Virus record (IMG/VR): IMGVR_UViG_3300042090_001054
Location: 1-22,528 of that record
Length of the DNA: 22,528 nucleotides
Direction: 5' to 3' (one strand)
Origin: a virus
Below the pieces are notes generated by a model. That model did not search any database. It saw nothing but the letters and a program-made list of their open reading frames with translations, and was not told the DNA's origin. The position numbers were made by a program, and so were the translations under genes. This document shows, piece by piece, positions 1 through 18,663 of this stretch; within the stretch, counting starts at the first letter, position 1; each line of letters opens with the position of its first letter.

Positions 1-711
1 TGCCACCGAAGCAATCCAGTTTACCGGGGAGTTTATCCCCTTCTGCTTTGAAAGCTCTTTAACTGCATGCTCTAAGGCAGCATCTGAATAGCCAGCAAGC
101 ATCTCTTCTTGTTGTTTTGATAAGCCATAAGCGTCTGCCAATAGCTGTATAACTGCTTTTTCTTCCATACTACTCTCTCTTTGAGGCAGTTGCATCGATG
201 GCGCTGCCTGCTTGTTTATAAATATGCATTCTGTTGCTTCTTCGGTGTAACCTTCTTCGTAAAAATGAGATTTTGCGGGGGGCAATATCACTCTTTCATA
301 TGGTTTATAATTACCTATATCAGTTAGTGTAGCGGCACCACTAAAAACAGCGGTGGAAAGCATAGAAACTAACAATACATATCTCAAAGAAGGAAGCTTC
401 TTTTTGAGGCGTTCACGCTCTTCAAAAATGAGGGGATTGACATAATAGTTGCAGGATTGATTGAAACCTCGTTGCTTATACTTAATAAGCCCCTTTTTTG
501 CAAGTCTCTTTGCTGCTCGGCAAACAGTAATACGATGGCAATTTAAACGCTCAGAAAGAAAACCATCCTGAGCAGGAAAAACATGAGTAAATTGATGGCC
601 TAAACCTATAAGAAGGTCTAAAATTCCTAATTCAATCTCATTATTATTATCAAGAAGTCCCTTGATTAAGGGCTTTATTTGAGATTCTTCTTGATTTTTA
701 GTGATGTTCAT
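1..711 (-). CDS. Replication-initiator-like winged-helix protein (partial, runs off left edge)
   Basis: 237 codons are visible, starting at the ATG whose complement is 709-711 behind a weak AAGAAGAG ribosome site; the C-terminus lies beyond base 1. Residues about 45-93 look like a helix-turn-helix/winged helix (FLSERLNCHRITVCRAAKRL, then LIKYKQRG as wing). The visible tail (YGLSKQQEEMLAGYSD ... INSPVNWIASVA) resembles the C-terminal region of phage and plasmid replication proteins of the HTH_36 kind, where a helical domain ends with an 'NPxxYL'-like motif. Odd feature: residues about 111-130 (YVLLVSMLSTAVFSGAATLT) form one hydrophobic segment after a KKK cluster, which could be a membrane helix and is not usual for an initiator. 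It is separated from the next leftward operon by a 248-base gap with repeats and hairpins. A plain transcriptional regulator is the alternative. DNA binding is well supported; the replication role is inferred. Confidence 0.6.
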   Translation of the reverse strand, partial: MNITKNQEESQIKPLIKGLLDNNNEIELGILDLLIGLGHQFTHVFPAQDGFLSERLNCHRITVCRAAKRLAKKGLIKYKQRGFNQSCNYYVNPLIFEERERLKKKLPSLRYVLLVSMLSTAVFSGAATLTDIGNYKPYERVILPPAKSHFYEEGYTEEATECIFINKQAAPSMQLPQRESSMEEKAVIQLLADAYGLSKQQEEMLAGYSDAALEHAVKELSKQKGINSPVNWIASVA

Positions 712-959: not shown

Positions 960-1160
960 TCAATCCTCTTCTCCTGGCTTTGGAATATCTTTTTCATACA
1001 TCCAATGCGTTACTTCATCTGCTGAAAGGCCCGTTTCGTGTTCAAACTCAAATTCTAAACTGTAAGATCCTACTGCTATTCCATTGGGATAAGGTTTCTG
1101 AAAAAATACAATCCCTTTACCTGGCGATGGCAATCTATCTTTTACGCTAATCCACTTCAT
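960..1160 (-). CDS. DUF551 domain protein
   Basis: A 66-residue protein that is almost entirely a DUF551 domain: N-terminal WISVKDRLPSPGK, a central beta-rich part, then the characteristic VTHWM motif (residues about 50-54) and a Pro-rich end (DIPKPGEED). DUF551 proteins are common in phages and mobile elements; their function is unknown. Its ATG overlaps the TGA of the upstream XRE-like gene by four bases (ATGA), so it is probably translationally coupled and is the last gene of the leftward operon starting at 4059. A broken relative lies antisense at 5765-5926. Family assignment is firm; role unknown. Confidence 0.8.
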   Translation of the reverse strand: MKWISVKDRLPSPGKGIVFFQKPYPNGIAVGSYSLEFEFEHETGLSADEVTHWMYEKDIPKPGEED

Positions 1161-1456
1161 ACTTCGTCCTCTTGTAATGGAACCATTGCATTGCCCAATT
1201 TGTTATATCTCTTCATCATAGAATGAAGCGCAACCGGTCCTTCTACAACAAACTCTTCCTTCTTCTCAAAGAAATGCTTCAATACCATCAATGTCACGTA
1301 ATTGCATGGCTTCTTGCCCTCCAGCAAACGAGCTAAAGTATGCCGACTTATCCCCGTCATATCTGCTATCTGTACAGCTGATGCCTTATTCTTCCCCATA
1401 TAATCCAATAGCAAGTGTCGTATCTCTAACGCTAATGCTTTCTTATCTTTGTCCAT
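1157..1456 (-). CDS. Small Cro/XRE-like helix-turn-helix regulator
   Basis: 99 residues. Residues about 25-62 form a Cro/C1-type helix-turn-helix: ASAVQIADMTGISRHTLAR, with recognition helix around ISRHTLARLLEGK, then a helix (NYVTLMVLKHFF) typical of small XRE proteins. A charged tail of about 35 residues follows and may serve dimerisation. The start overlaps the recombinase-domain gene by 14 bases and its stop overlaps the DUF551 start (ATGA), so it is embedded in the YifB operon. It is a plausible regulator of the divergent promoter region at 4089-4125, where an inverted repeat spans both -10 boxes. That target is inference. Confidence 0.75.
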   Translation of the reverse strand: MDKDKKALALEIRHLLLDYMGKNKASAVQIADMTGISRHTLARLLEGKKPCNYVTLMVLKHFFEKKEEFVVEGPVALHSMMKRYNKLGNAMVPLQEDEV

Positions 1457-2531
1457 GCTCGCTCCTTACATACTCTTTATATTCATTTATCTTTAATATA
1501 TTTCTATCAATCATCCCCGATAGCATTATCTTCAATTCTGATGGGGCAATATTCGATTGTAGCGAAAGATCTTCTATATCTAATGGAACTGATAGGCAAT
1601 CATAGATCGTTTGTTCTTGCTCAGTTAATGTGATCTGCTGTTTGTCGGGTGGTTGATATTCAGCCCTGCTGTGTTTCGTATTGTTTGCTAAAACAAATTG
1701 AACTCGATCAAAGAGATCTTTCGATATAAAAGTAGGATATACATGCGGAAACTCTTTTCCTTTATATTCCATAATCCCTATATAGAACTTATTAGTAAGA
1801 ATCGTATGAACATTATGAGTGCTCATCTTGATATCGGTATATTTGCTACTGATATATTTCGATAACGAAAGAACTGAATAGTTGCCAGTTGCATACGATG
1901 TCATTATATCTTTAACTATTGTGCTATCTCTTTCATATACATATACCTCTCCACGCGAATGAAAACGATTTGGCTGAGGATTTTTTATAACTTTGTAACC
2001 TCTTGGATAGGTCGTAAGCCAAAGACCATCCATTAATCGCTTCAATTTATAGTTGGGAATCGGAGTATTGTCATAACGCTTTCTTTTTTTGTCAGGAGAA
2101 ATAGTGCTTGCAGACTTGGAAAATGATTTTTTTGTATCTCTTATCTTCTGCACCTTATAAAATAATTCTTCAGAAATAAGAGTAGGATAATTATGGGGAT
2201 ACCATTCTCCATTCCAGCACATAAATCCTGCATAAAACTTATTAGCAATGATCTCTAGAACCCTTGCCTTTCCCCATATCTGCCCATGCTTCTGATGGAT
2301 ATATTCTCCAAGACTTATAGCCGTATAATTACCGGTAGCATACAATTCAAATACTTCCTTTATAAGAAGAGCTTCTCGCTCATTAACAACAATTGGATTG
2401 CGCCCTTTTCCCCTTTGAATCTCTCGAGGAGTAAATTCAAATATTCTCTTGTAGCCAAATGGAGCAGGGCCAATCCAATAGCCTTCTTTTATAACGCGCA
2501 AAAATGCAAGCGAACGACTATTCAATGACAT
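1443..2531 (-). CDS. Tandem serine-recombinase 'Recombinase' domains without catalytic domain, plus winged helix
   Basis: 362 residues from ATG 2531 (AGGAAG ribosome site); the start lies inside the end of the YifB gene. Residues about 9-130 match the DNA-binding 'Recombinase' domain of large serine recombinases: GYWIGPAPFGYKR, a VVNEREALLIKEVFELYATG helix and NKFYAGFMCWNGE. Residues about 165-283 are a second copy: TYPRGYK, DIMTSYATGNYSVLSLSKYI, NKFYIGIMEYKGKEFPHVYP. The N-terminal resolvase domain with its nucleophilic serine is absent; the protein begins where the linker after that domain would be. The cysteine zinc ribbon common in the family is also absent. Residues about 301-359 resemble the DprA C-terminal winged helix (TLTEQEQTIYDCL ... 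NIAPSELKIMLSGMI). By itself it should not cut DNA; a role as DNA-binding partner, excision factor or regulator is inferred. Confidence 0.8.
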   Translation of the reverse strand: MSLNSRSLAFLRVIKEGYWIGPAPFGYKRIFEFTPREIQRGKGRNPIVVNEREALLIKEVFELYATGNYTAISLGEYIHQKHGQIWGKARVLEIIANKFYAGFMCWNGEWYPHNYPTLISEELFYKVQKIRDTKKSFSKSASTISPDKKRKRYDNTPIPNYKLKRLMDGLWLTTYPRGYKVIKNPQPNRFHSRGEVYVYERDSTIVKDIMTSYATGNYSVLSLSKYISSKYTDIKMSTHNVHTILTNKFYIGIMEYKGKEFPHVYPTFISKDLFDRVQFVLANNTKHSRAEYQPPDKQQITLTEQEQTIYDCLSVPLDIEDLSLQSNIAPSELKIMLSGMIDRNILKINEYKEYVRSEHGQR

Positions 2532-4059
2532 CAAACTTCCTCAATAACTTATCAAATCCTCTATAACTCAATGCTTCTTTCAGATGAGCTACTTCAACCG
2601 CATCGCTATTCTCTAGATCCGCTATAGTTCGCGCTACTTTAATAACTTTATGAAATCCACGCATAGACAGATCAAATAATTCAAACGCTTCCTTCATGTA
2701 TTCTTGGGCTTCTCGTGAAAAAGCAGCGTTTCTATCCATAAACTCACCCGCGATGAGCCCATTATATTTACCCTCACTATTACGATCGAACTGTCGCAAC
2801 CGTGCCATATCAACTCGCTTGGCAACATCCCTTGATGCTTCCGTCGATCCTCTTGACTCGATATCAGAATAGTCGACCGCCGAAAGGCAAACTTGCATAT
2901 CAATACGATCCAAAAGTGGGCCAGAAAGCTTGGACATGTAATATTTAATCTTGGCCAAGGAGCACACACACTTGTTTTTCTTATCCCCGAAATAACCACA
3001 CGGACATGGGTTAAGGGCAGCGAGCAACATGAATGACGCAGGATATGTAGCATTATGCTTTCCCTTCTTTAAATGAATCCTTCTTTCTTCGAGGCATTCT
3101 CGCAGAGATTCCATGCAATACTTAGAGAACTCTAAGAACTCATCCAAAAATAGAACTCCATTATGTGCCATACTAATCTCTCCAGGATACGGAGGCTGTC
3201 CGCCTCCTATCAATCCAGTATGGGACGTAGAATGATGGGGAGACCTAAACGGCGGATTGAGAATCGGCCTGTTATTCTCTAACTTACCCGCTGAAGAATA
3301 GATACGGGTAGTCTCTATCATCTCTTGAAGCGTTAATGAAGGCATAATCGTACTGATGCGCTTAGCCAACATAGTCTTACCAGAACCAGGAGGGCCATAG
3401 AATAGAATGTTATGCCTGCCCGCTGCTGCTATCTCTAAAGCGCGCTTTGCCTGTTGCTGGCCGTAAATCTGATTGAGATCAAGATCATATTGAGCAGATA
3501 TAAGCTGTTGCTCCTGATGATCTACTCGTTTGAAATTCTGAATATCAAATACCTGGAGGATATTCTCAATACTATATATCTCAACATCAGGCACTAAGGA
3601 GCATTCGGTACGGTTAGATGCCGGTACCACGAGTCGCTTTTTGCCCATCTGTTTCAGGCTGAGAGCTATAGATAATGCATTATTAACCTGAAATAGATCG
3701 CCAGAAAGAGATAATTCACCCACTACTACAGCATCTTTTAGGAAATCTATGATCTCTTGGTTTATCTTATGATTGGCAATAAAGAATAAAATAGCCAAAG
3801 ACAGGTCAAAATAAGACTCATTCTTATACATATCGACCGGCAATAGGTTAAAGATGTACTTAGCTTCATTAACGGTAATGTTATTACGAGCAATAATGCT
3901 TCCTATCTTCTTCCTAAAATTATTACCTATTACAGGATTGATACCTATAAAAGAAAATGAAACATCATCAGCAGGCAATGCTACCATCTCTGCTCTAATA
4001 AGATGGACATCTATCCCCTCTGATAAAGCCGTATATATAGTTAGTGAATTGTTCGTCAT
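2518..4059 (-). CDS. YifB/ComM-family Mg-chelatase-like AAA+ ATPase
   Basis: 513 residues, the usual full length for YifB/ComM. The N-terminal Lon-protease-like domain shows FDLSLAILFF (about 84-93) and VVVGELSLSGDL (111-122). The AAA+ module carries Walker A GPPGSGKT (222-229), Walker B GVLFLDEF (301-308), a CPCG...CVC cysteine set (352-366) typical of the family, and LLDRIDMQV (382-390) with the expected arginine. A C-terminal helical domain contains SMRGFHKVIKVARTIADLE. ComM is a hexameric helicase that extends branch migration when incoming DNA is integrated during natural transformation. All key motifs look intact. It is the first gene of a leftward operon and overlaps the recombinase-domain gene by 14 bases. 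A full-length copy in a phage-like neighbourhood is unusual and suggests capture from a host. Confidence 0.93.
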   Translation of the reverse strand: MTNNSLTIYTALSEGIDVHLIRAEMVALPADDVSFSFIGINPVIGNNFRKKIGSIIARNNITVNEAKYIFNLLPVDMYKNESYFDLSLAILFFIANHKINQEIIDFLKDAVVVGELSLSGDLFQVNNALSIALSLKQMGKKRLVVPASNRTECSLVPDVEIYSIENILQVFDIQNFKRVDHQEQQLISAQYDLDLNQIYGQQQAKRALEIAAAGRHNILFYGPPGSGKTMLAKRISTIMPSLTLQEMIETTRIYSSAGKLENNRPILNPPFRSPHHSTSHTGLIGGGQPPYPGEISMAHNGVLFLDEFLEFSKYCMESLRECLEERRIHLKKGKHNATYPASFMLLAALNPCPCGYFGDKKNKCVCSLAKIKYYMSKLSGPLLDRIDMQVCLSAVDYSDIESRGSTEASRDVAKRVDMARLRQFDRNSEGKYNGLIAGEFMDRNAAFSREAQEYMKEAFELFDLSMRGFHKVIKVARTIADLENSDAVEVAHLKEALSYRGFDKLLRKFDVIE

Positions 4060-6777: not shown

Positions 6778-7002
6778 ATGCAACAATGTTATCGATGCAA
6801 GATCATTATTGACGATTGTGAAGAATGTAGAGAAGAAAAAAACATAGCTCATGGATGCCAAAATGGAACGTGGCGTGTATGGACTCCAGATCCAAGAACA
6901 GAAAAAGATATAATATGTTTATGCAATTGGTGCCATAAAGAATATAGCGATTTTGTAGCTACAAATTGCCGTCGATGGATGAACTTATTTGAGGAAAAAT
7001 AA
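6778..7002 (+). CDS. Cysteine-rich probable zinc-binding protein
   Basis: 74 residues with ATG 6778 behind AAGGACTAGC. It has eight cysteines: CYRC (4-7), CEEC (14-17), a single Cys near 27, CLCNWC (about 47-52) and a late Cys (about 63). This fits one or two zinc sites of a zinc-ribbon kind. Its stop overlaps the ERF gene start (TAATG), so it is translationally coupled to the recombinase and may act on the same DNA or complex. Function is not assignable from sequence. Confidence 0.65.
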   Translation: MQQCYRCKIIIDDCEECREEKNIAHGCQNGTWRVWTPDPRTEKDIICLCNWCHKEYSDFVATNCRRWMNLFEEK

Positions 7003-7745
7003 TGGATACTATAGAACTCATAAAAATTCAGGATATGATCAACGATCTTTATAAGAAGATCCAAGCTATGACCGATAGCAAGATCGTGCAACCTGAGTCA
7101 CATTCATCCGCAGATATCAAAGAGCTTGCTACTGCTTTGGCTAAAGCTCAAGCTGAATTCGAAGTAGCAGCTGAGAATAAGAGCAATCCTTTCTTTAAGA
7201 GTGCATATGCTGACTTGATGTCGGTAGTTCAAGCATCTCGGCCATCTCTAACCAAGAACGGCTTGTCTGTTATGCAGATCATCACTGATAACGATGAAGG
7301 CAAATGGCTCACCACTAAGCTTATGCATACTTCTGGCGAATGGGTGCAATCTAAAGTGCGCATAGTACCTCCAAAAAACGACGTACAGAGCATATCTTCT
7401 ACTATCACATACATGAAGCGCATGTGTTATGTATCGTTGGTTGGGGTTGTTGTTGGCGATGAAGATGATGATGGCGAGGCCAGTGTAGCAACCAGTAGAG
7501 ATACATTTGCTAAGGGCGTTGCTTTGAATACAAAATATAATGCTCGAGAAGATACCACTGAAACCATAACAAAAGAGCAGTTAGAAGAATTAAACCTGGA
7601 GCTCGCAGAATATCCTGATGTGGCAGAGATGGTACTCGACGGATTGAAGATACAGAACTTAGCCGATATCCCTCGTAGTAAATATTTCCCTGCTTTAAAG
7701 CGCATCCGTGAAATAAAAGATGCTAGAAATAATCCAAGAAAATAA
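7002..7745 (+). CDS. erf: ERF-family single-strand annealing recombinase
   Basis: 247 residues. The core (residues about 36-160) shows the ERF signature: ELATALAKAQAEFE, NPFFKSAYADLMSV (62-75), NGLSVMQ (86-92), LTTKLMHTSGEW (103-114), SSTITYMKRM (132-141) and the acidic end GDEDDDGEAS (152-161). ERF proteins such as P22 Erf bind single-stranded DNA as rings and anneal complementary strands, serving genome circularisation and recombination. The C-terminal part (about 185-247) is a separate helical tail, probably for oligomerisation or partner contact. The length is in the usual range. It is coupled by TAATG to the Cys-rich protein. With the YifB-like ATPase it makes this a recombination-rich phage region. 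Confidence 0.9.
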   Translation: MDTIELIKIQDMINDLYKKIQAMTDSKIVQPESHSSADIKELATALAKAQAEFEVAAENKSNPFFKSAYADLMSVVQASRPSLTKNGLSVMQIITDNDEGKWLTTKLMHTSGEWVQSKVRIVPPKNDVQSISSTITYMKRMCYVSLVGVVVGDEDDDGEASVATSRDTFAKGVALNTKYNAREDTTETITKEQLEELNLELAEYPDVAEMVLDGLKIQNLADIPRSKYFPALKRIREIKDARNNPRK

Positions 7746-8242: not shown

Positions 8243-9718
8243 TTATTGAATTAATACACCAGAGAAGTAGTTAATACCGACACCTGATCCATGTATTCCT
8301 ACAGTCTTTGTAGATCCTGCAGCGATAACTTCTACTTGAACCGTATTACCTGCGGTTAATGGAATCAATATAGAACCTGAACCACTAATGCCATCATTAT
8401 CACCAGGCATATACACATTGCCCGCATTAACGCTAAATGGATACCAAGGACCAACGCCCGTAGTATAGATAATAAACGTTAATTGATTATGACTAGCGTT
8501 AAAATTGGTAAAAAATGCTCCAGCTGTTATTAACCAGAATCCTGTTGTAGGAACCGTATATTGTCCAGTCAACGTACTAAATCCACTGGCTGTATCTACT
8601 ACTACGGTATCCCACAATATAGTGTATTGAGTAGCATCACCCGTTACGTTAGTAACGCCTGTAGTGAGAGATGCTTGAAAGTATGGCTTGGCTGTAGCAA
8701 TCGTAATAGATCCAGCACCATTCGTTATGGATATACCTGTTCCTGCTGTAAGTGTAGCTATAGTCGGATTGGCACCCGTAGAACCTATAGGTAACTGACC
8801 ATTAGTTGCCGCAGCAAGCGACGTTAATGATCCAGTAGCATTCCCTATCTGAAGAGCATGATTCGTTGTTCCTGTAACGTTTATGGTTACTGTATTAGCT
8901 ACAGCAGCTGTTGTTCCTATATTGTTTCCACCATGGATATTAATAAGGCCTGCCACAGTTGGTAACGCATTATTTCCATCATCGGCATGCAATTCTGTAA
9001 CGGCACCATCAGCAGATATGGATGCCCAACTTGGCGCTCCTCCTGTTGTTGCGGTTAATACTTGTCCCGTTGTTCCATTCGGTAACAATGATGGTATTCC
9101 TGTATTAGACGTTATTAAGACGCCATCATTAACAACGGTAAGAGATGTTAATGATCCGGTAACATTACCTACTTGAATAGCGTTATTCGTAGTACCAGTT
9201 ATTGCTATAGCAACAGTATTTGAAGCACCAGGCGCAGAAGTAGATATATTGCCGCCTGCTAATCCTTTAATATTCAGCACGCCAGCCACAGGTGCAGCAG
9301 TACCCGAATCTGTAGGGAAACTATTAGCCGCTTCGCCACCTATTGCACTTATAGTAATAGTATTGGTCGAAGGATTAGATGTTGTTGTTATGGTTGTCCC
9401 ATCACCCCATATATTGATATTACCTGTCAAAGTAGGAAATACTGTCGCTCCTGGAATATTTGGCGTTAAGTGTAACAGTGGACCAACGCTTCCAGACAAT
9501 AATACCCAATTAGCAACATTACCAGATAGGCCCATTAAAACCCATAACTGACTGTTGTTACTCGTTTTACTTATACGATATACCCAGAAGTCTCCTATTG
9601 AAAATCCCTGGTAATTGGTTGGTAAAGGGGCTACATTCTGAACCGTTATATTTGGTGGCGTAGGCGCATTTGTGCCTTGGTAGGCTAATGAACTTATACC
9701 TGATAAACCATTGCTCAT
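8243..9718 (-). CDS. Tail-fibre/adhesin-like protein with C1q/TNF-like C-terminal domain
   Basis: 491 residues. Residues about 37-75 (GFSIGDFWVYRI ... NVANWVLLSG) form a short domain also seen near the N-terminus of the 339-aa protein at 15205-16224, probably an attachment module. Residues about 90-343 are Gly/Thr/Ala/Asn-rich beta repeats, with two similar units containing TGTTN(N/H)A(I/L)Q(V/I)GN(V/A)TGSLTSL. Residues about 345-491 resemble a C1q/TNF jelly roll: YFQASLTTG, TILWDTVVVD, LTGQYTVPTTGFWLITAG, ISGSGSILIPLTAGNTVQVE, NYFSGVLIQ. C1q-like tips trimerise and bind ligands, so this is probably a trimeric receptor-binding fibre. The ribosome site TAGGAGATATC is strong. It is the last gene of the leftward fibre block. 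Confidence 0.75.
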   Translation of the reverse strand: MSNGLSGISSLAYQGTNAPTPPNITVQNVAPLPTNYQGFSIGDFWVYRISKTSNNSQLWVLMGLSGNVANWVLLSGSVGPLLHLTPNIPGATVFPTLTGNINIWGDGTTITTTSNPSTNTITISAIGGEAANSFPTDSGTAAPVAGVLNIKGLAGGNISTSAPGASNTVAIAITGTTNNAIQVGNVTGSLTSLTVVNDGVLITSNTGIPSLLPNGTTGQVLTATTGGAPSWASISADGAVTELHADDGNNALPTVAGLINIHGGNNIGTTAAVANTVTINVTGTTNHALQIGNATGSLTSLAAATNGQLPIGSTGANPTIATLTAGTGISITNGAGSITIATAKPYFQASLTTGVTNVTGDATQYTILWDTVVVDTASGFSTLTGQYTVPTTGFWLITAGAFFTNFNASHNQLTFIIYTTGVGPWYPFSVNAGNVYMPGDNDGISGSGSILIPLTAGNTVQVEVIAAGSTKTVGIHGSGVGINYFSGVLIQ

Positions 9719-9727
9719 TGATATCTC

Positions 9728-11740
9728 CTAAGCCGATACATATTCAGTAACAATAACTATTCCCGCACCGCCTGCGCCACCTGCTTGTTGTGTTTGACTC
9801 GTATAGCAATATGCTCCACTTCCACCACCACCGTAGGTGCTTCCTGCATTTCCTGCCGCAGCTACAGCTCCTGTAATAGTAGGTTGTCCGCCACCACCAA
9901 AGATAGAATTACCGCCAGCACCCGACGCACCATAACTAAGAGTAGTTAAGTTACTAAATGAATAGCCACCTATTTGACCTGATGCTAAAAAATCTCCCGC
10001 GGTTCCTGCGCCACCATTTCCTCCTAGAGATCCTGTAGATCCCGCACCAGCACCGGCACCAACGCCACCAAGGCCACCAGTTGCAGAACAAATAGATCCT
10101 ACAGAAGAAGTTCCACCTGTACTTCCAGCGTGATTACCTGCTGCTCCGGCAGTTCCACCAGCTCCAACAGTCACTGTTTGTGAAGCGCCTATAGAAGCCG
10201 CAGTTGATGTTTTACGGGCATAGCCACCACCGCCACCGCCGCCAGCCATACTTACTGTTCCACTAGCAGTCGTACTACAGCCGCCACCGCCACCGCCGCC
10301 ACCAACAACTTCAATAGTGCAATACACCATGCCAGAAGTTGGGGTATAGTTTCCATTAGAAGTAAATGTTTGAACAACTACTTCAGTTATTGCTTTGTTT
10401 GCTATTGCTAATGATCCTAGAGCACCAGTACTTGTATTGATAGTTACATAGTTGGTATTAGAAACAGTATTACCGGCAACACCAGCCATTAAAACACCAC
10501 CAGCAGGGGCGTTAATATTCACTGAGGAAGAAGCTGTTGTTGTTCCTATAGTCGTAACATTGGCTACTGCACCTGTCGCAATATTGACCGCTTTTGCATT
10601 CGTTGCACCACCAGCAATATTAACTGTCGTAGCACCAGTTCCTGCACCTATGGCAACAATGTTCGTTCCTGTTGAAGAACCAACGGTAATTGTACCTGTC
10701 TGTGCAGTGCCTCCTAAAAGAATCGTGCCTGTTGTTAATCCTGTTCCTAGAGTAATAGTAGAACTTGCTGCTCCTGTTAATAGGAAGTTTCCAGTTCCAA
10801 TGTTCGCTGCGATACCAGATGCACCGGTAGTATTGCCAATATTTGTAGTTGAAGCTGCAGCACCTGTGGCTATGTTAACCGTCTGAGTTCCTGAAGTAGA
10901 AACTCCAGTTAATATATTGACCGTAGTTCCTGCACCTGCTGCTGCTGAAGCAATATTGATAGTATTAGCACCTGTATTAACTACGTTAGCAATATTAACC
11001 GCTTGCCCCGCCGTTGAGTTAGCGATCGTTAAAGTTCCAGTTTGACCCGTAGCTCCAATGGTAATAGTTCCGGTAGTAAGACCAGTTCCTAGAGTAATAG
11101 TCGATGTAGTAGCTCCAGATAATACATAGTTACCAGTACCAACCTTTTGAGCAATTCCAGAAGCACCTGTGGTGTTACCGATATTTGTTGTAGAAGCAGC
11201 AGCACCTGTAGCAATGTTTACGGTCTGTGTGCCAGCAGTAGATACGCCATTTAGAATGTTAACAGTAGAAGTAGCTCCGGCTGCGCCAGAAGCAATATTA
11301 ACTGTTTGGGTAGATGTATTTACACCATTACCTATTGATATTGTGTTTCCTGTAACACCGTTGGCAATATTAACCGTTGTTGCACCAGCACCTGCACCTA
11401 TTGCAACTATATTCGTTCCTGAAGAAGAGCCAAGCGTTATCGTTCCTGTCTGGGCAGTGCCACCGATAGTGGTTGTACCCGTCGTTAAGCTGGTACCTAT
11501 AGTAATTGTAGAGTTAGTAACTCCATCAAGAAGATAATTTCCAGTACCAACGTATTGAGTAAGTGATGATGCGCCATTAGTAGATCCGACGGTGACAAGC
11601 TTTGCGCCTGCTCCGGTCCCCACATCTACTGTAGTCCCTGCTGCATCCGTCGATATATTTATTTGATTTGTTCCAGAATTCAATGTTATAGCGCTATTGG
11701 CAGCGGCTATAGCGTTGTTCCACGAATTCGTAGTAGACAT
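9728..11740 (-). CDS. Long repeat fibre protein with polyglycine-rich tip
   Basis: 670 residues with AAGGATAATCT before ATG. Residues about 30-400 are beta-solenoid-like repeats. The largest unit begins VGTGNY(L/V)L and recurs at about 64, 200 and 315, each with STITLGTGLTTGT, GG(T)AQTGTIT and TQTVNIATGAAASTTNIGNT. Residues about 453-670 form a glycine-rich domain opened by VVVQTFTSNGNYTPTSGMVY, containing two runs of seven to eight Gly and ending GGAGGAGIVIVTEYVSA. Similar domains end many phage fibres and adhesins and may pack as polyglycine helices exposing variable loops to the receptor. A virion surface fibre or adhesin is the best reading. Much of the repeat region is shared in style with the 339-aa protein upstream. 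Confidence 0.75.
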   Translation of the reverse strand: MSTTNSWNNAIAAANSAITLNSGTNQINISTDAAGTTVDVGTGAGAKLVTVGSTNGASSLTQYVGTGNYLLDGVTNSTITIGTSLTTGTTTIGGTAQTGTITLGSSSGTNIVAIGAGAGATTVNIANGVTGNTISIGNGVNTSTQTVNIASGAAGATSTVNILNGVSTAGTQTVNIATGAAASTTNIGNTTGASGIAQKVGTGNYVLSGATTSTITLGTGLTTGTITIGATGQTGTLTIANSTAGQAVNIANVVNTGANTINIASAAAGAGTTVNILTGVSTSGTQTVNIATGAAASTTNIGNTTGASGIAANIGTGNFLLTGAASSTITLGTGLTTGTILLGGTAQTGTITVGSSTGTNIVAIGAGTGATTVNIAGGATNAKAVNIATGAVANVTTIGTTTASSSVNINAPAGGVLMAGVAGNTVSNTNYVTINTSTGALGSLAIANKAITEVVVQTFTSNGNYTPTSGMVYCTIEVVGGGGGGGGCSTTASGTVSMAGGGGGGGYARKTSTAASIGASQTVTVGAGGTAGAAGNHAGSTGGTSSVGSICSATGGLGGVGAGAGAGSTGSLGGNGGAGTAGDFLASGQIGGYSFSNLTTLSYGASGAGGNSIFGGGGQPTITGAVAAAGNAGSTYGGGGSGAYCYTSQTQQAGGAGGAGIVIVTEYVSA
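10541..11551 (-). repeat. Coding tandem repeats in the long fibre gene (115-136-residue units)
   Basis: Three long units encoded from about 11551, 11143 and 10798 (reading leftward) share amino-acid blocks such as GTGLTTGTI, AQTGTIT, VNIATGAAASTTNIGNTTGASGIA and NIVAIGAGxGATTVNIA. At DNA level the copies differ at many third codon positions, so they are diverged protein repeats rather than recent exact duplications. Confidence 0.7.
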
Positions 11741-11752
11741 AGATTATCCTTT

Positions 11753-12466
11753 TTAAGCTATAGTCAAGTTACCCACCGCATTAATAACGGTAAAAATTGG
11801 AGCTGATGCAGATGCAGTTGTACATACTAACCAGCAACAATCGTTAGTATTAGTTGATGACAGGCTACCAGAAGTTGTTGTTGTCGTTGAAGACCCGAAA
11901 ATAATGTTCTGATTAGTAGTATAGACTATCGTCCAACCACCAGTTCCTTTACCAACAATAACAATCGTATCGCCGAGTGCATTATTAGTAGGAAGCGTGA
12001 ATGTTGTTAATGTGCTCTTATCGGCAATATAACCATTCTGAGCTGCAACTGTAGCAGAACCGCCGGTGACATCATGCCAAGTAAATCCTGCTCCTGTTGA
12101 AGCAATAGTGATCGTTCCAGCACCATTAGATACAGTGATACCAGCACCTGCAGAAATGGTACCTGCTGCTGGGCTTGCTCCGGTTGAACCAATAGCTAAT
12201 TGTCCGTTAGTTAAAGTTACTGCTGCTAAAGCACCTGTGCCAGTTGTATTGGATACTACCACACCATTGGTATTGAAACTTACTGCTGCAGTACCACCAC
12301 CTGCTACTAAAGCAGTAGAGAAGGTTGGGTTTGCCGATGAACCATTAGATACTAATGGAACACCTGAAGTAGCCGAAGGCGCAATGTTTGTTAAGGTACC
12401 ATTAGCTCCACCAACTTGAGCATTATATTGCGTTGGACTGTAATCTGCTGCGTTATTTGTAGCCAT
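11753..12466 (-). CDS. Fibre-like protein with shared C-terminal domain
   Basis: 237 residues with an AAAGGAAAA ribosome site. The N-terminal part (1-127) is Ala/Gly/Thr/Asn-rich with units such as LTNGQLAIGSTGASPAAGTI and GAGITVSNGAGTITIAS, like blocks in the C1q-type fibre. Residues about 128-237 (GFTWHDVTGGSATVAAQNGY ... PIFTVINAVGNLTIA) are a compact domain that also ends the neighbouring 412-aa protein, including TFTLPT, LGDTI, GWTI and SLSSTN. The shared domain implies duplication between adjacent genes and may be a trimerisation or receptor-binding tip. A virion surface role is inferred from composition and context. Confidence 0.7.
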   Translation of the reverse strand: MATNNAADYSPTQYNAQVGGANGTLTNIAPSATSGVPLVSNGSSANPTFSTALVAGGGTAAVSFNTNGVVVSNTTGTGALAAVTLTNGQLAIGSTGASPAAGTISAGAGITVSNGAGTITIASTGAGFTWHDVTGGSATVAAQNGYIADKSTLTTFTLPTNNALGDTIVIVGKGTGGWTIVYTTNQNIIFGSSTTTTTSGSLSSTNTNDCCWLVCTTASASAPIFTVINAVGNLTIA

Positions 12467-12475
12467 TATTTTCCT

Positions 12476-13714
12476 TTAAGTTATTGAAAGATTTCCGATA
12501 GAAGAGAAGACTGTAAACAAGGGCTGCGTAATACTTGCAGTACTACATATTAATTCAACACAATCTGCTGCATTTGTTGATGAAAGACTACCAGTAGTTA
12601 CACTCGTAGAGTTTTTACCATAAATAATCTGTTGATTTGCGCCATAGGTTATAGTCCAGAGACCTGCGCCCTTACCCATAATTCGTATAGTATCTCCAAA
12701 TGCTGCTGAAGTAGGAAGCGTGAAGGTTATTAGCAATGCTGAGTCGGCTATATAGCCATTCTCTTTTACCATGGCTATAGGACCTGTAGTAGTTACATCA
12801 GTCCAAGTAAACCCTGATGCTGTTGCTGCAATCGTAATCGTGTTTGCTCCTGGAGTTACCGTAATGCCAGCACCTGCCGTAATCACGGCAGTTCCCAATT
12901 GATCCGAGTGTTCAGTGACCACTGTAGCAGTAGACGCAACATCGACGCCTGATATACCGCAGATGTATGCTGCTGCTAATTGCTGATTCCCTGACCCGGT
13001 TGCGGCACCTATTCTGAGAACGTTTGATTCCGCGAGGACGCCTTCATGATTAAGAAGGATATTAGATGACTCTGCCCCAGTGTAATTAATACCACTATTG
13101 TCCCCTGCGGCGATATTATATGATCCACTTGTCAAATAGTAAAGAGAATCGGTTCCTAGGGCAGTATTGAATGCTGAGGATCCGGCACTGGCCAAGGCAG
13201 ACCAACCGACAGCTACGTTATTCGCTGCTGTTAATGCACCAATAAGAGCATTATAGCCAACACCTACGTTATAGGATCCCGATGTTAATGATCCAAGGCT
13301 ATTGACGCCTATACTTACGTTATTTTCTCCAGAAATAGAAGCATTCCCTGCTTCATTACCAATTATTACGTTCCCGTTTGCATCAGTAACATTGAGTTGA
13401 ACTAGATGCCCAGATCCCGTAAATTCAACCGAAGATCCACAGAGTTGCGCAGAATTGCCTGCATTGATATCAAGCACACCAGCTGATGGAGTTGCGGTGC
13501 CTGAGTCAGTTACAAAGCTATCAGCTACGGCTCCTGAATTAGATATGGTTAGAGTATGAGTTCCTGGATTGCCTACAACAGTTATCGTTCCAGATCCAAC
13601 TATATTAATATTACCAGTACCATCAGATGATACTTTACCGCCAACATCACCCTCAAGCGTTTCAACATAGGTGCCCGGTGGAATTGGTTTTTGATAGCTA
13701 CCAGCTTGGCTCAT
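12476..13714 (-). CDS. Fibre/adhesin with YadA-like head repeats and shared C-terminal domain
   Basis: 412 residues from ATG 13714, chosen because it overlaps the stop of the HNH gene as ATGA and has AAAGGG upstream; an earlier in-frame start lies inside that gene. Residues about 115-205 contain trimeric-autotransporter (YadA-type) head motifs in 20-25-residue steps: NNVSIGVNSLGSL, YNVGVGYNALIGAL, NNVAVGWSALASA, YNIAAGDNSG. Then comes SNVLRIGAATGSG ... YICGISG, a motif often found before fibre tips. Residues about 301-412 match the C-terminal domain of the 237-aa neighbour (GFTWTDVTTTGPIAMVKENG ... FTVFSSIGNLSIT). YadA-like heads are trimeric left-handed beta rolls that stick to surfaces, so a host-binding fibre is likely. 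Confidence 0.75.
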   Translation of the reverse strand: MSQAGSYQKPIPPGTYVETLEGDVGGKVSSDGTGNINIVGSGTITVVGNPGTHTLTISNSGAVADSFVTDSGTATPSAGVLDINAGNSAQLCGSSVEFTGSGHLVQLNVTDANGNVIIGNEAGNASISGENNVSIGVNSLGSLTSGSYNVGVGYNALIGALTAANNVAVGWSALASAGSSAFNTALGTDSLYYLTSGSYNIAAGDNSGINYTGAESSNILLNHEGVLAESNVLRIGAATGSGNQQLAAAYICGISGVDVASTATVVTEHSDQLGTAVITAGAGITVTPGANTITIAATASGFTWTDVTTTGPIAMVKENGYIADSALLITFTLPTSAAFGDTIRIMGKGAGLWTITYGANQQIIYGKNSTSVTTGSLSSTNAADCVELICSTASITQPLFTVFSSIGNLSIT

Positions 13715-14214
13715 AGAATACCGCCCTTTCTTTTCTCGTCGCAATTTATTCTTGAAACAAGTTTATGCGATATATTAAAAATATTTGCAATATCACGCTG
13801 TTTCTTACTTTCTGCAAGCAACGCTTTTATTTTATCTCTATCCGAATCAGATAATTTAGACCTTGGATTCTTCTCGCCCTTTTGATGTAAGACAGGACTT
13901 CTTTTTTTAAGAATCATATCTCTCGCATTGTCAGTTCGAGTACCAAGAAATAAATGGTCAGGATTAGTACAAGAAGCATTATCGCATTTATGCAAAACAC
14001 ATAATCCTTCTGGAATTTCTCCAAAAAATATCATCCAAGAGCCTCTATGAGCCAATATTTGTCTATTTTTATAAAAATACATTCCATAACATTGCTTATT
14101 CTTTATGCCATTCCATTCCCAGCATCCTTCTGGCCGCTTCAGAACATATTTCTCGAATCCTTGCTGCAATGTTCTACATGGTCTTTTGTTTTTTTGGCTA
14201 TAAAAAATTCCCAT
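13711..14214 (-). CDS. HNH homing endonuclease with C-terminal helix-turn-helix
   Basis: 167 residues with AGGTGATTG before ATG. Residues about 30-105 are an HNH_3-type nuclease: CWEWNGIKNKQCYGMYF, AHRGSWMIFFGEIPEG, VLHKCDNASCTNPDHLFLGT (73-92) and DNARDMILKK. His75, Asn84 and His87 are the probable HNH residues, with Cys pairs as in the family. Residues about 120-156 (KLSDSDRDKIKALLAESKKQ ... IFNISHKLVSRI) are a helix-turn-helix for target recognition. This is the usual layout of free-standing phage homing endonucleases that cut an intron- or gene-less allele and spread by repair. It lies inside the fibre block, with its TGA overlapping the next gene's ATG, and does not visibly interrupt any reading frame. 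It probably nicks or cuts a related phage nearby. Confidence 0.9.
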   Translation of the reverse strand: MGIFYSQKNKRPCRTLQQGFEKYVLKRPEGCWEWNGIKNKQCYGMYFYKNRQILAHRGSWMIFFGEIPEGLCVLHKCDNASCTNPDHLFLGTRTDNARDMILKKRSPVLHQKGEKNPRSKLSDSDRDKIKALLAESKKQRDIANIFNISHKLVSRINCDEKRKGGIL

Positions 14215-14222
14215 ACAATCAC

Positions 14223-14570
14223 CTATACATCAGAGCCAAACATGACGCTAAAGTAAACAGAACCAGTTGATGGAGTCCCTATCTCTTTAACATACAACCG
14301 AGTTCCTTCAGCAATATAGAATCCGCCTTGCTGGGTCTTGTTGCTGGTTACATCGTCTAAAAGAAAGCCATTGCTTGGTAAGGGAAAATGATCATTGATT
14401 CCATCAAACGAAAACATAAGCGTTACATCAGTCAGATTCTGTATAAAGAACTGTCGGGCTGGATTAGCAATAGGAGTTCCTACGCCCATATAACCAGCGC
14501 CTATAGATGCTTCGCCCAGAGATCGAACTGGCTCAAATTGAAGTCGTATCGCTAAATTTGGGGTTGCCAT
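14223..14570 (-). CDS. Small virion-like beta protein (paralogue of next upstream gene)
   Basis: 115 residues with a TAGGAGAATAGT ribosome site. The core QFFIQNLTDVTLMFSFDGIN, then DHFPLP, LYVKEIG and STGSVYFSVMFG, matches the 113-aa protein encoded just upstream (NATDETITISYDGVNDHEIM, IYVKGTAG, TGSVYLSGFY). The two genes are a tandem duplication separated by one base. Such small beta proteins occur in phage structural regions, perhaps as head or tail decoration or fibre-base subunits; the exact role is unknown. It is probably co-transcribed with the fibre genes from 16247-16276. Confidence 0.65.
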   Translation of the reverse strand: MATPNLAIRLQFEPVRSLGEASIGAGYMGVGTPIANPARQFFIQNLTDVTLMFSFDGINDHFPLPSNGFLLDDVTSNKTQQGGFYIAEGTRLYVKEIGTPSTGSVYFSVMFGSDV

Positions 14571-14571
14571 A

Positions 14572-14913
14572 CTATTCTCCTACTGGTTGGTAGAATCCTG
14601 AAAGATACACGCTTCCTGTGCCCGCCGTCCCTTTAACATATATAATCTGACCGATAGGGAATAATGCTACTTTTCCTGCAGGTAATGCATTATTCTGCGT
14701 TGTTGGAGTTTCATAGACGGTATTTTCCAGCATAATCTCATGATCATTAACGCCATCATAACTAATGGTTATTGTTTCATCTGTCGCATTATTTATTCTG
14801 AAAAAGAAAGCTGCACCTTCAGCTCCACTAGGATTGATAGCTATATATCCTACCGTGATATCTGCAGATGTAATGCTTGTTAACTTTAAAGGGAATACTC
14901 TATTATTGGCCAT
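14572..14913 (-). CDS. Small virion-like beta protein (paralogue of downstream gene)
   Basis: 113 residues, ATG after AAGGATCAGGCG. Motifs are FFFRINNATDETITISYDGV, NDHEIML, GQIIYVKGTAGTGSVYLSGF. It is clearly related to the 115-aa product of 14223-14570, about one third identical by eye in the core. Its start overlaps the end of the 73-aa gene by 11 bases. No signal peptide, membrane helix or enzyme motif is present. Two diverged copies side by side suggest hetero-oligomers or two decoration proteins. Structural role inferred from context only. Confidence 0.65.
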   Translation of the reverse strand: MANNRVFPLKLTSITSADITVGYIAINPSGAEGAAFFFRINNATDETITISYDGVNDHEIMLENTVYETPTTQNNALPAGKVALFPIGQIIYVKGTAGTGSVYLSGFYQPVGE

Positions 14914-15124
14914 CGCCTGATCCTTCTACCACTTCTGGTTCTAGAGGGGCTTCTTCTGCGGGCTTCGTTGCTCCCAAGGCTTTTTTAGCTTGTTCACAGA
15001 CCTCTAAAAGAAGGTCGTTAGTAGCATCAACTGCAGTACCCCATGTAGTTCCTACTGGAATGTGGAATGTAAAGTCGTGTTCGCCTTTGGTTACTTTGAT
15101 CTGTACTAATTGCGTAATTTGCAT
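14903..15124 (-). CDS. Hypothetical small acidic protein in fibre operon
   Basis: 73 residues from ATG 15124. This start is preferred to one at 15259 because it has AAAGGAAAAGC upstream and avoids overlap with the 339-aa gene; the longer frame would also run through a strong hairpin. The N-terminal part (MQITQLVQIKVTKGEHDFTF) is beta-like. A helix follows (AVDATNDLLLEVCEQAKKAL), then an acidic Pro/Glu tail (PAEEAPLEPEVVEGSG). Not recognised; it could be a chaperone or assembly factor for the adjacent structural proteins. Confidence 0.65.
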   Translation of the reverse strand: MQITQLVQIKVTKGEHDFTFHIPVGTTWGTAVDATNDLLLEVCEQAKKALGATKPAEEAPLEPEVVEGSGDGQ

Positions 15125-15143
15125 TGCTTTTCCTTTGTATGTG

Positions 15144-15181
15144 CATAGCCCCCTGGAAGAGTGAAAGACCAAGGGACTATG
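15144..15181 (-). other. 13-bp hairpin in the fibre-operon RNA
   Basis: On the minus strand CATAGTCCCTTGG and CCAGGGGGCTATG pair along all 13 positions, two of them G-U, around a 12-base loop. On the plus strand those two pairs are mismatches, so the structure is favoured in the leftward RNA. It lies between the 339-aa gene (ends 15205) and the 73-aa gene (starts 15124). No T-run follows, so an RNA-stability or processing element is more likely than a strong terminator. Confidence 0.5.
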
Positions 15182-15204
15182 ATATGAGAATATTATTAAT
15201 TTTA

Positions 15205-16224
15205 TCAGGCACCTGTGACGACGTAAGTCCATGTAGTTGCGCCATTGGTATTTATCCAAAGACGGTTATTCACACCAGAACCTGCAGTATATAAATAAAT
15301 AGATCCCTGTGCAGCATTGACCGAACCGTTAGGCAATCCAGAACCAAATAAGATAGCAGGGCCAGTATTGAATGATATACCGGCAGTATCAAGTATAAGC
15401 TCAGTTCCAGTAGCAGTTTCTAACGTTAAAGTAGTGCTCGCTGTGGTAGAACCTATAACGATAGATTTAGCCGCTGCGCCTGTACCGATATTGACACTAG
15501 ATATAGTTGCATCTGAGGCAATATTTGTAGTACCTGTACCTGAATTAATCGTAATGCCCGCTGTTCCACCGTTAATAGTAGTTGAAGCAGCCCCTGTTGT
15601 AGAACCTAAGGTAACTACGTTAGCAGCTGCACCATCACCCACGTGAACTGTCTTAACGCCTGTACCGCCTGTACCAAGGTTAACTGTTTGAGCACCAGTA
15701 CCACCACCAAAAGTAATAGCTCCTGTTTGAGCAGTTCCGCCTATAGCTATAGTACCTGTTGTAGTAGCAGCACCAACGGTATACGTTGTAGCAGCAGCGC
15801 CATTTAGGACAAAGTTACCAGTACCTGTTTCTAAGGTAAGCGAACTTGCACCAGTAGCTGAACCAATACTCACAAGCTTAGCACCAGCACCAGTACCTAT
15901 GCCAATTGTGGTATTTACCGCATCGCCAGAAATACTCACTGCGCCAGTTCCTGTAGTCGTCACTGGGCCAGGATTAACAGTCAGGCTTGTAAATACACCC
16001 GCGCCACCTGAAGCTTCTAATAGTTGCCAGTTTGCTGCACCAGCTGTAATAGAAGAAAGACAATAGATAAGATTAGATGGTTGGTCGATCCATAAAGTGC
16101 CATACGGACTCGTATCACTTGTGGTTGGGGCCCGTTGGGAAATTATAGGTGATGGAGGAAGTGTTTGGAGGGCATTATCTATGCCGTATCCCACCAATAA
16201 TCGTGTTCTTCGTTGAATTGCCAT
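15205..16224 (-). CDS. Repeat fibre protein, first gene of leftward fibre block
   Basis: 339 residues with a CAGGAGAATATA ribosome site. Residues about 35-72 (TSPYGTLWIDQPSNLIYCLS ... AANWQLLEASGG) resemble the N-terminal module of the C1q-type fibre and probably attach it to the virion. Residues about 95-280 are Gly/Thr/Ala repeats such as IGTGAGAKLVSIGSATGASS and IGGTAQTGAITFGGGTGAQT, closely related to those of the 670-aa fibre. The end (AAQGSIYLYTAGSGVNNRLW ... TTWTYVVTGA) is a module often seen at the C-terminus of phage fibre or tail proteins. As the promoter-proximal gene it may be the main fibre shaft. Confidence 0.75.
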   Translation of the reverse strand: MAIQRRTRLLVGYGIDNALQTLPPSPIISQRAPTTSDTSPYGTLWIDQPSNLIYCLSSITAGAANWQLLEASGGAGVFTSLTVNPGPVTTTGTGAVSISGDAVNTTIGIGTGAGAKLVSIGSATGASSLTLETGTGNFVLNGAAATTYTVGAATTTGTIAIGGTAQTGAITFGGGTGAQTVNLGTGGTGVKTVHVGDGAAANVVTLGSTTGAASTTINGGTAGITINSGTGTTNIASDATISSVNIGTGAAAKSIVIGSTTASTTLTLETATGTELILDTAGISFNTGPAILFGSGLPNGSVNAAQGSIYLYTAGSGVNNRLWINTNGATTWTYVVTGA

Positions 16225-16566: not shown

Positions 16567-18663
16567 ATGCTGTTTCCCATACTTGGACCTCAATATTACG
16601 ATCAAAAAGATCAAGCAATTCTTTCCAGAATGGAATCGTTCTATGCAGAAGCTATTACGATCAATCAATCTTTCTGGGGTGAAGCTGACACTGATACTCG
16701 ATTTGAGGTAGGCGATCAAACTCTCTGGACCGATCTATACGGTAACCTTCCTGCAAATCGTCGCAGGCAATTTAATTTTAACCGCATCCGACGCGTTATA
16801 GAGATGGTTTCTGGCTATCAACGCCGTAACCGTAAATCAACCATCTGCATTCCTGAAATCAATGCTGATGCAGAGACTGCTGATCAGTTCACCAAAGTAC
16901 TCATGTATGTTAATAAGACTGGAAATGTTCTTGAGACTATCTCAGAAGCGTTTCATGGTGCGTTAGTAACCGGCATGAACTTCTTACATGTATGGACAGA
17001 CTATAGAACCGATCCGGTTAATGGTGAGATTAAGGTAGATTGTTGTCCGTATAACTCATATATGGTTGATCCGTACTTCAGAAAATTAGATATGTCCGAT
17101 TGCAATGGTATATGGAAAAGATCTTTTCTTACCAAAAGAGAATGTATTTCGCTCCTACCAGAATCTACCGAAGAAATACTTGGGCTTACAGGATTGGATG
17201 CCGGTACTGGTCGTGATGGAAAATTCCAATTCATGCCCGAATCCTACAATTATGGGTATAAAAACTTACTTACCTACGATGAGTTCTATTATCGTGACTA
17301 TCGACAGCAAAAACTTCTGATTGACAGCCAGACTGGCGACACCATGGAATGGAAGTCGGATGACGAAGATGCATTACGAATGTTCTTGGAAATGAATCCA
17401 ACGATAACCGTAACTAAGCAAGAGATACCAACAGTGACGTTGGCTATTGTAGTACAGGGTAGAGTTTTCTACCACGGGCCTCAACCACAGGGAATTGATT
17501 CATACCCTATGGTGCCCGTGGTTGGTTATTACAATCCGCAGATGCCGTATTTTCCATATCGTATACAAGGTATGGTTCGTGGCTTAAGAGATGCTCAGTA
17601 TCTCTACAATCGTCGTCGTATCATTGAACTAGATATCTTAGAATCACAAATCAACTCTGGTTGGATATATAAAGAGAATGCTTTAGTTAACCCTAAAGAT
17701 GTGTTTTTGAATGGTCAAGGCCGTGGTTTAGCGCTCAAGTCTGATGCTCAGATGACTGATGTGCAGCAGATTCTTCCTCCTCAAGTACCGCCATCTATGA
17801 TTCAGCTATCAGAATTGTTAGCGCGTGAAGTTATGGAGATATCAGGTGTCAATGAAGAACTATTGGGATCAGCCATTGATGATAAGGCTGGTATATTATC
17901 GATGCTTCGCCAAGGAGCTGGTCTTACAACATTACAATCCCTTTTCGATCATCTTGATTTGGCTCAAAAAGCTGTGGGCAAGATAATGCTTGATATTGTT
18001 CAAGCTAACTGGACTCCAGGAAAGATCGCTAAGATATTAGAAGATCAGCAGCCTGCTGCCCAGTTCTACAATAAAAACTTTGGGAAATATAATGCTGATG
18101 TTGAAGAAGGTCTCAACACTACTACACAAAAGCAGATGCAGTTTGCGCAAATGTTACAACTTCGGGAAGCTGGTGTACCGATATCTCCGGTTGACCTCTT
18201 GGAAGCGGCGACAATTCAAGGCAAGAAAAAAATCATAGAGAACTCTGTAGCAATGCAGCAAGCTCAAATGCAAGCTCAGCAGATACAGCTACAAGCTGGC
18301 GTTCAAGAGCAACAAGCCCGTACAAACTTGGCACATGCTCGAGCTCAAGCAGACCGAGGCTTAGGATTGGAACGCGTATCACGTATTCAAGAGAATCAAG
18401 CATTGGCGCAAGAGCGTAGAGCTGCAGCTGAGAAAGATCGCGAGATGGCTTTACTCAATCTCGTAAAAGCTCTAAAAGAAATAGAAGGTGTCGATCTGGC
18501 TCATCTTGAAAAGCTCATCAATCTTAATCAATTGGTTCAATCAGGCGAGCAATCCTTAAGTGAAGAACAACCTATGATGCCACAACAAGCTCCAATGCAG
18601 CAATCGCCTATGCAGCAGAATTTAGAAGCTATTGGACAACCTCAACCAATGGCAGGTAGTTAG
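16567..18663 (+). CDS. P22-type portal protein
   Basis: 698 residues, close to the 725 of P22 gp1. The N-terminal part has DTDTRFEVGDQTLWTDLYGN and NFNRIRRVIEMVSGYQRRNR (70-89), typical of P22-like portals (the 'N-R-I...I...GyqR' block). The middle contains the expected alpha/beta wing and stem: GMVRGLRDAQYLYNRRRIIE and EISGVNEELLGSAIDDKAGI. The C-terminal 120 residues are a Gln/Ala/Arg-rich helix (QQAQMQAQQIQLQAGVQEQQ, ARAQADRGLGLE) like the portal barrel, then a Pro/Met/Gln-rich tail. Portals form a dodecameric ring at one capsid vertex through which DNA enters and leaves. The ribosome site CAAGGAGA lies inside a hairpin. Head genes follow downstream; no terminase gene is seen before it. 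Confidence 0.92.
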   Translation: MLFPILGPQYYDQKDQAILSRMESFYAEAITINQSFWGEADTDTRFEVGDQTLWTDLYGNLPANRRRQFNFNRIRRVIEMVSGYQRRNRKSTICIPEINADAETADQFTKVLMYVNKTGNVLETISEAFHGALVTGMNFLHVWTDYRTDPVNGEIKVDCCPYNSYMVDPYFRKLDMSDCNGIWKRSFLTKRECISLLPESTEEILGLTGLDAGTGRDGKFQFMPESYNYGYKNLLTYDEFYYRDYRQQKLLIDSQTGDTMEWKSDDEDALRMFLEMNPTITVTKQEIPTVTLAIVVQGRVFYHGPQPQGIDSYPMVPVVGYYNPQMPYFPYRIQGMVRGLRDAQYLYNRRRIIELDILESQINSGWIYKENALVNPKDVFLNGQGRGLALKSDAQMTDVQQILPPQVPPSMIQLSELLAREVMEISGVNEELLGSAIDDKAGILSMLRQGAGLTTLQSLFDHLDLAQKAVGKIMLDIVQANWTPGKIAKILEDQQPAAQFYNKNFGKYNADVEEGLNTTTQKQMQFAQMLQLREAGVPISPVDLLEAATIQGKKKIIENSVAMQQAQMQAQQIQLQAGVQEQQARTNLAHARAQADRGLGLERVSRIQENQALAQERRAAAEKDREMALLNLVKALKEIEGVDLAHLEKLINLNQLVQSGEQSLSEEQPMMPQQAPMQQSPMQQNLEAIGQPQPMAGS

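Follow-up and report, generated by a model that had tools for sequence, protein, structure and literature searches.

In a phage genome fragment, a gene for a ComM-type ATPase (yifB) is followed by an overlapping gene, here called REC, whose product carries two tandem DNA-binding domains of the large serine recombinase type and a C-terminal DprA-type winged helix, with no catalytic domain. The window, i.e. the whole stretch of DNA analysed (22,528 nucleotides of IMGVR_UViG_3300042090_001054), comes from a phage in IMG/VR; this linear 22.5-kb piece encodes a portal of the P22 type as well as an ERF annealase. Each part of this arrangement is known already; the combination was found in three phages and not elsewhere among the collections searched. 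The two genes overlap, and our leading but tentative reading of their role is that REC may be a sequence-specific DNA-binding adaptor which recruits or loads the ComM-type motor, the pair being carried as optional phage cargo.

Domain content and structure of REC

The coordinates of the features are collected in Table 1. The ATG at 2531 was retained as the start of REC, an in-frame TTG at 2534 being judged less likely. The protein is basic (pI about 9.4) and is made up of a stub of helix alphaE, two tandem Recombinase domains and the winged helix. PF07508 matches it twice (E=5.8e-24, 84.7 bits for a Pfam cut-off of 21.1), the second half included, and the two halves aligned to each other are 39.5% identical over 119 aa (E=1e-27); the duplication proposed in the preliminary description is thus borne out. 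In PHROGs, domain a was matched by an integrase profile and domain b by one for a 'DNA invertase'. Matches between REC and the CcrA/CcrB models were weak.

The same description had REC begin where the catalytic domain should end. No resolvase domain (PF00239) was found at E<=10 in any of the six frames of the contig, which excludes a catalytic domain nearby, whether frameshifted or encoded separately, and hence also one just upstream. In alignments with full-length recombinases, the first residues of REC fall on helix alphaE and the alphaE-beta6 linker, which confirms that REC begins where the catalytic domain ends. In LI integrase this linker tracks the minor groove (PMC3783163). The zinc ribbon, also said to be missing, gave no family match in REC with Pfam, and the whole protein holds two cysteines only (C105 and C312). 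No coiled coil was present in the AlphaFold2 model, and the Rossmann-fold DNA-processing domain of DprA was found neither by Pfam nor in the model.

The AlphaFold2 model of REC (16 rows; mean pLDDT 85.4, pTM 0.45) shows a pair of recombinase domains, a winged helix at residues 304-356 and a flexible linker, poorly predicted at residues 141-149, in agreement with the domain content given above; the relative placement of the domains is undefined in this model. When the model was compared with the PDB using Foldseek, A118/LI integrase-DNA complexes came first (4kis, 2.6e-6; 6dnw), followed by phiC31 and Bxb1, and winged-helix proteins appeared later and weakly. A PDB sequence search with the REC profile supplemented with recombinase rows returned SPbeta YokA and A118 integrase. 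A PR10 protein, the sole PDB match of a two-member REC profile, was judged to be a chance match.

In a phylogenetic tree, the six recombinase domains of the three phages were set apart from full-length recombinases as a single clade (support 98), within which the b copies grouped together (support 76). A single duplication, most likely preceding the split of the three phages, is therefore suggested by the tree.

The likeness of the C-terminus to DprA, which had been noticed at first sight, was below the cut-off in Pfam (E=0.1) and yet held up when a winged-helix profile built from three sequences was run against 97 bacterial genomes of one phylum: the five best matches were all DprA C-terminal winged helices (E 2.8e-5 to 0.013), recognised as DprA by their Rossmann-domain sequence. 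With one DprA the identity is 34% over 56 aa. Searching the PDB with this profile by itself gave no match.

Table 1. Features of the window discussed in the text (positions in the window).
Feature	Position	Strand	Description
Winged-helix replication-type protein (Nrep)	1..711	-	Continues past contig end; homologues in L016, L120, L032 and others
DUF551 protein gene	960..1160	-	4-nt overlap with HTH gene; PF04448 3.2e-7
HTH protein gene	1157..1456	-	14-nt overlap with REC stop region; same operon; weak HTH matches
REC gene	1443..2531	-	362 aa; ATG at 2531; ORF list, Pfam, AlphaFold2
DprA-type winged helix of REC	1464..1634	-	Residues 300-356; Pfam, AlphaFold2, profile search
Recombinase domain b	1683..2030	-	About residues 168-283; second PF07508 stretch, phrog_7701 195-304, AlphaFold2
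Putative DNA-recognition helix alphaH, domain b	1794..1820	-	Residues 238-246; AlphaFold2; varies more between phages than the domain core
Recombinase domain a	2112..2483	-	About residues 17-140; PF07508, AlphaFold2
Putative DNA-recognition helix alphaH, domain a	2244..2270	-	Residues 88-96; AlphaFold2, homology with LI integrase alphaH Tyr207/Asn208
REC residues 1-28, MSLN...EGYWIGPAPFGYKR	2448..2531	-	C-terminal part of helix alphaE and alphaE-beta6 minor-groove linker; alignment with full-length recombinases
yifB/REC overlap ATGTCATTGAATAG	2518..2531	-	14 nt; equal length in all three phages
Shine-Dalgarno GAGGAAG of REC	2536..2542	-	Within yifB 3' end; GAGGAA in all three phages
YifB/ComM-family AAA+ ATPase	2518..4059	-	513 aa; Lon-like N-domain, intact Walker A/B, zinc-finger cysteines
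YifB Walker B LFLDEF	3136..3153	-	Residues 303-308; alignment to 8rxd
YifB Walker A GPPGSGKT	3373..3396	-	Residues 222-229; alignment to 8rxd
ERF single-strand annealing protein	7002..7745	+	PF04404 1e-17, phrog_2324 1e-38; left of variable region in relatives

The YifB motor and its coupling to REC

Over its full length (model positions 1-499), the phage YifB matches TIGR00368 at 2e-133 (445.6 bits, with a curated cut-off of 362.4). Aligned to L. pneumophila ComM (8rxd; 4.8e-93, 468 residues aligned), it has intact Walker A, Walker B and conserved arginines; judged by these motifs, the ComM ATPase core is kept. ComM, a branch-migration motor, is a hexamer with two tiers and loads itself on DNA in vitro; its self-loading on substrates in vivo and its partners are stated to be unestablished or poorly documented (PMC11612176).

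The start of REC falls in the last codons of yifB, which confirms the overlapping operon described earlier. The neighbourhood of comM/yifB and dprA in bacterial chromosomes, which had been put forward in the same context, did not hold in this sample: dprA overlaps yifB in one genome with a DprA winged-helix match, but the two genes are no more than about 1.5 kb apart in just 1 of the 36 yifB loci checked, so that the synteny argument is weak here.

Recurrence and conservation among phages

Successive queries and exact peptide patterns were used to scan 2.9 million viral contigs, from which two further copies of REC were retrieved, in L016 (4223-5308, 361 aa, 38-39% identical) and L120 (341-1462, 373 aa, 41-42%). 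Among the three phages REC is 39-42% identical and its architecture is the same. In both L016 and L120 it follows yifB, with a 14-nt overlap and a GAGGAA Shine-Dalgarno sequence inside yifB. YifB of L016 is 75% identical to that of the window; yifB of L120 is cut by the contig end, and the C-terminal part seen (the last 117 aa) fits TIGR00368. All three phages that have REC thus have yifB with it, in keeping with the pairing and the conservation elsewhere that were anticipated. The replication-type gene (Nrep) lies near the pair in each of them. RusA and the terminase are also shared by L016 and L120, and the portal by L120.

The winged helix is the best-conserved domain of REC (54% pairwise identity among the three phages), followed by the cores of domain b (50%) and domain a (37%). 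For the stretch of domain b that corresponds to the recognition helix, identity falls to 18%, a value that comes from three sequences and 11 columns. In LI integrase, alphaH contacts bases via Tyr207 and Asn208 (PMC3783163), and the REC residue pairs aligned to these two (our numbering of the alignment) are different in every copy. Within the limits of three sequences, a variable helix together with a constant winged helix is the pattern that a shifting DNA target and an unchanged partner would produce.

YifB is absent from 42 other related phage records, and PF07508 was found in none of these except for one fragment below the cut-off. Many related records are themselves fragments, in which single absences carry little weight. 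Near-complete relatives have ERF, variable genes, the replication gene, RusA and the terminase in this order. The closest relative by replication gene and ERF (L032/L112) is without the pair and keeps ERF, DUF551 and the replication gene, its variable region being occupied by other small genes. As the pair is missing from these relatives, yifB and REC are accessory, and a core replication function is argued against; they are read as optional cargo of one phage lineage.

The REC profile was run on a sample of one phylum and the collections were scanned by exact peptide patterns. The 240 Patescibacteria genomes gave only ordinary single-domain recombinase matches, and phage and plasmid records gave recombinase matches none of which covered 80% of REC. 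Across the viral contigs, the phage and plasmid records and the bacterial genomes searched, the tandem recombinase domains, DprA winged helix and yifB were not found together outside the three phages. No recombinase free of its catalytic domain and no link between ComM and a DprA winged helix was found in the literature, mostly that available without subscription. The plasmid recombinases most like REC (H61 and H62) belong to Legionella adelaidensis and Neochlamydia. Both are associated with amoebae, which hints weakly at the ecology of the phages.

Proposed role of the pair and alternatives

REC would descend from a large serine recombinase, through loss of the catalytic domain and the zinc ribbon, duplication of the DNA-binding domain and acquisition of a DprA-type winged helix. 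By their fold and known homologues, the two linked recombinase domains would bind a specific double-stranded DNA site, and the winged helix may dock on YifB or hold single-stranded DNA. The winged helix of H. pylori DprA binds DNA, not double-stranded DNA, according to a title cited in PMC7314969, and a role with RecA was suggested by the radiodurans work of that source; given the behaviour of the H. pylori domain, docking on YifB is only one option. REC might thereby recruit or load the hexameric branch-migration ATPase at its site, for use on phage recombination or replication intermediates, beside the ERF annealase and, in L016/L120, the RusA Holliday-junction resolvase.

Three roles had been proposed for REC at the outset. 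An adaptor directing a helicase fits best, given the intact ATPase, the conserved overlapping pair, its joint presence and absence, and the DNA-binding folds without a catalytic domain. The two others, a dominant regulator of a recombinase and a recombination directionality factor, are unsupported as roles internal to the phage, since the catalytic domain of serine recombinases is absent from the window and from 44 related records. A directionality factor or subunit poison of the phage's own integrase was accordingly rejected (0 of 44 records with a cognate catalytic domain, many of them being fragments). The anatomy of REC favours a DNA-binding partner of YifB over a remnant, over a directionality factor and over a regulator acting on its own. 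Against the adaptor stand the absence of the pair from most relatives, the self-loading of ComM in vitro, and the repeats around yifB and REC, among which no convincing binding site near the genes was found.

A more specific version is drawn by analogy and is speculative, on balance doubtful: the ComM-type hexameric translocase would be aimed at specific double-stranded sites by a catalytically empty tandem-recombinase specificity subunit whose recognition helices change fast and whose DprA-type docking domain is conserved, a logic resembling that of the specificity subunit of restriction systems. If REC does load YifB, a ComM-type motor would have a dedicated partner with sequence specificity, and serine-recombinase DNA-binding domains would have been cut from strand exchange and reused as pure targeting modules, a case of interest for putting such domains to new uses in DNA targeting.

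REC could instead aim YifB at competitor or host DNA in a conflict system (anti-plasmid, anti-satellite, anti-defence or superinfection exclusion). The accessory status of the pair, which sits in the variable stretch bounded by ERF and the replication gene, where L032 has other small genes, and the fast change of the putative recognition helices make such a role a serious rival to one in phage recombination; the closest single-domain relatives of REC are, moreover, recombinases of the mobile-element type. The pair is, however, without a nuclease, and PADLOC gave no match for REC and only generic AAA+ matches for YifB. We regard this role as unlikely, though still deserving attention.

An equally unlikely explanation is that REC regulates transcription of an early operon (YifB-REC-HTH-DUF551) independently of YifB, the overlap reflecting compact packing. 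REC is indeed a protein of the DNA-binding type without an enzyme domain, its gene has yifB on one side and an HTH gene on the other within a divergent early region, and overlaps are common in this operon. On the other hand, the HTH gene shifts, standing before yifB in L016 and after REC in the window, whereas yifB and REC are always joined by the 14-nt overlap and are present or absent together. In the window the four genes form an overlapping chain at 960-4059 (14, 14 and 4 nt). A promoter and terminator scan gave results at chance level.

It is improbable that REC blocks the att sites of other elements' serine recombinases, such as a site in yifB, with the phage YifB serving as an intact copy of the interrupted gene. 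The NPCPCG codons of yifB are indeed an integration site for elements with serine recombinases: in a Bacteroidetes genome (G045, L128/L129), yifB is split at these zinc-finger codons with a recombinase abutting, and in Acetoanaerobium phage ANDSL2_ph1 (L130:4452-6092) the 3' end of the integrase overlaps a fragment of yifB that stops at codon 354. REC retains the DNA-binding half of such an enzyme. The yifB-targeting recombinases nevertheless had no match to REC in a search that matched 13 other recombinases, and REC is without the zinc ribbon, the more sequence-defined recognition domain in LI integrase (PMC3783163).

That REC is a decaying integrase remnant, as its missing catalytic and zinc-ribbon domains might suggest, is very hard to credit: in three diverged full-length orthologues, both Recombinase domains and the winged helix are preserved, as are the position of the start and the ribosome-binding site, in line with the initial view that this is not random decay.

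Comparison with known systems

REC shares with A118/LI integrase (4kis; PF07508) the Recombinase-domain fold, the alphaE-beta6 linker and the alphaH helix. It differs from large serine recombinases by what it lacks (resolvase domain, zinc ribbon, coiled coil) and by its duplicated domain, its added DprA-type winged helix and its fixed partner gene yifB. With DprA it has the C-terminal winged helix alone in common, the Rossmann domain that loads RecA being absent.

The phage YifB shares with L. pneumophila ComM (8rxd) the Lon-like N-domain, the Walker A/B motifs, the zinc-finger cysteines and the C-terminal Mg-chelatase domain. Its identity to the sampled bacterial YifBs does not exceed about 40%, and it differs from ComM/YifB in being phage-encoded, in its C-terminal tail containing the ribosome-binding site of REC and in its pairing with REC. 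A role of the phage YifB in natural transformation is not expected.

SCC elements have an MCM-like AAA+ helicase, Cch, beside the Ccr serine recombinases. They resemble yifB-REC in placing an MCM-like AAA+ motor next to serine-recombinase DNA-binding domains. The Ccr proteins, in contrast, are complete catalytic recombinases, the helicase belongs to another family, and tandem domains and a DprA winged helix are absent.

Other features of the window

Between ERF and the portal, a minus-strand block (8246-16224) contains repetitive glycine/threonine-rich ORFs of the tail type, one of which (9728-11740) has a Gly_rich_2 domain at its end. An HNH endonuclease with a C-terminal HTH, probably a homing endonuclease, is encoded within this block at 13711-14214. 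The order ERF, tail block, portal was not seen in the relatives mapped. The portal (16567-18663) is 100% identical to that of L017 (IMGVR_UViG_3300014654_000127), identities with the other listed relatives being about 66-75%.
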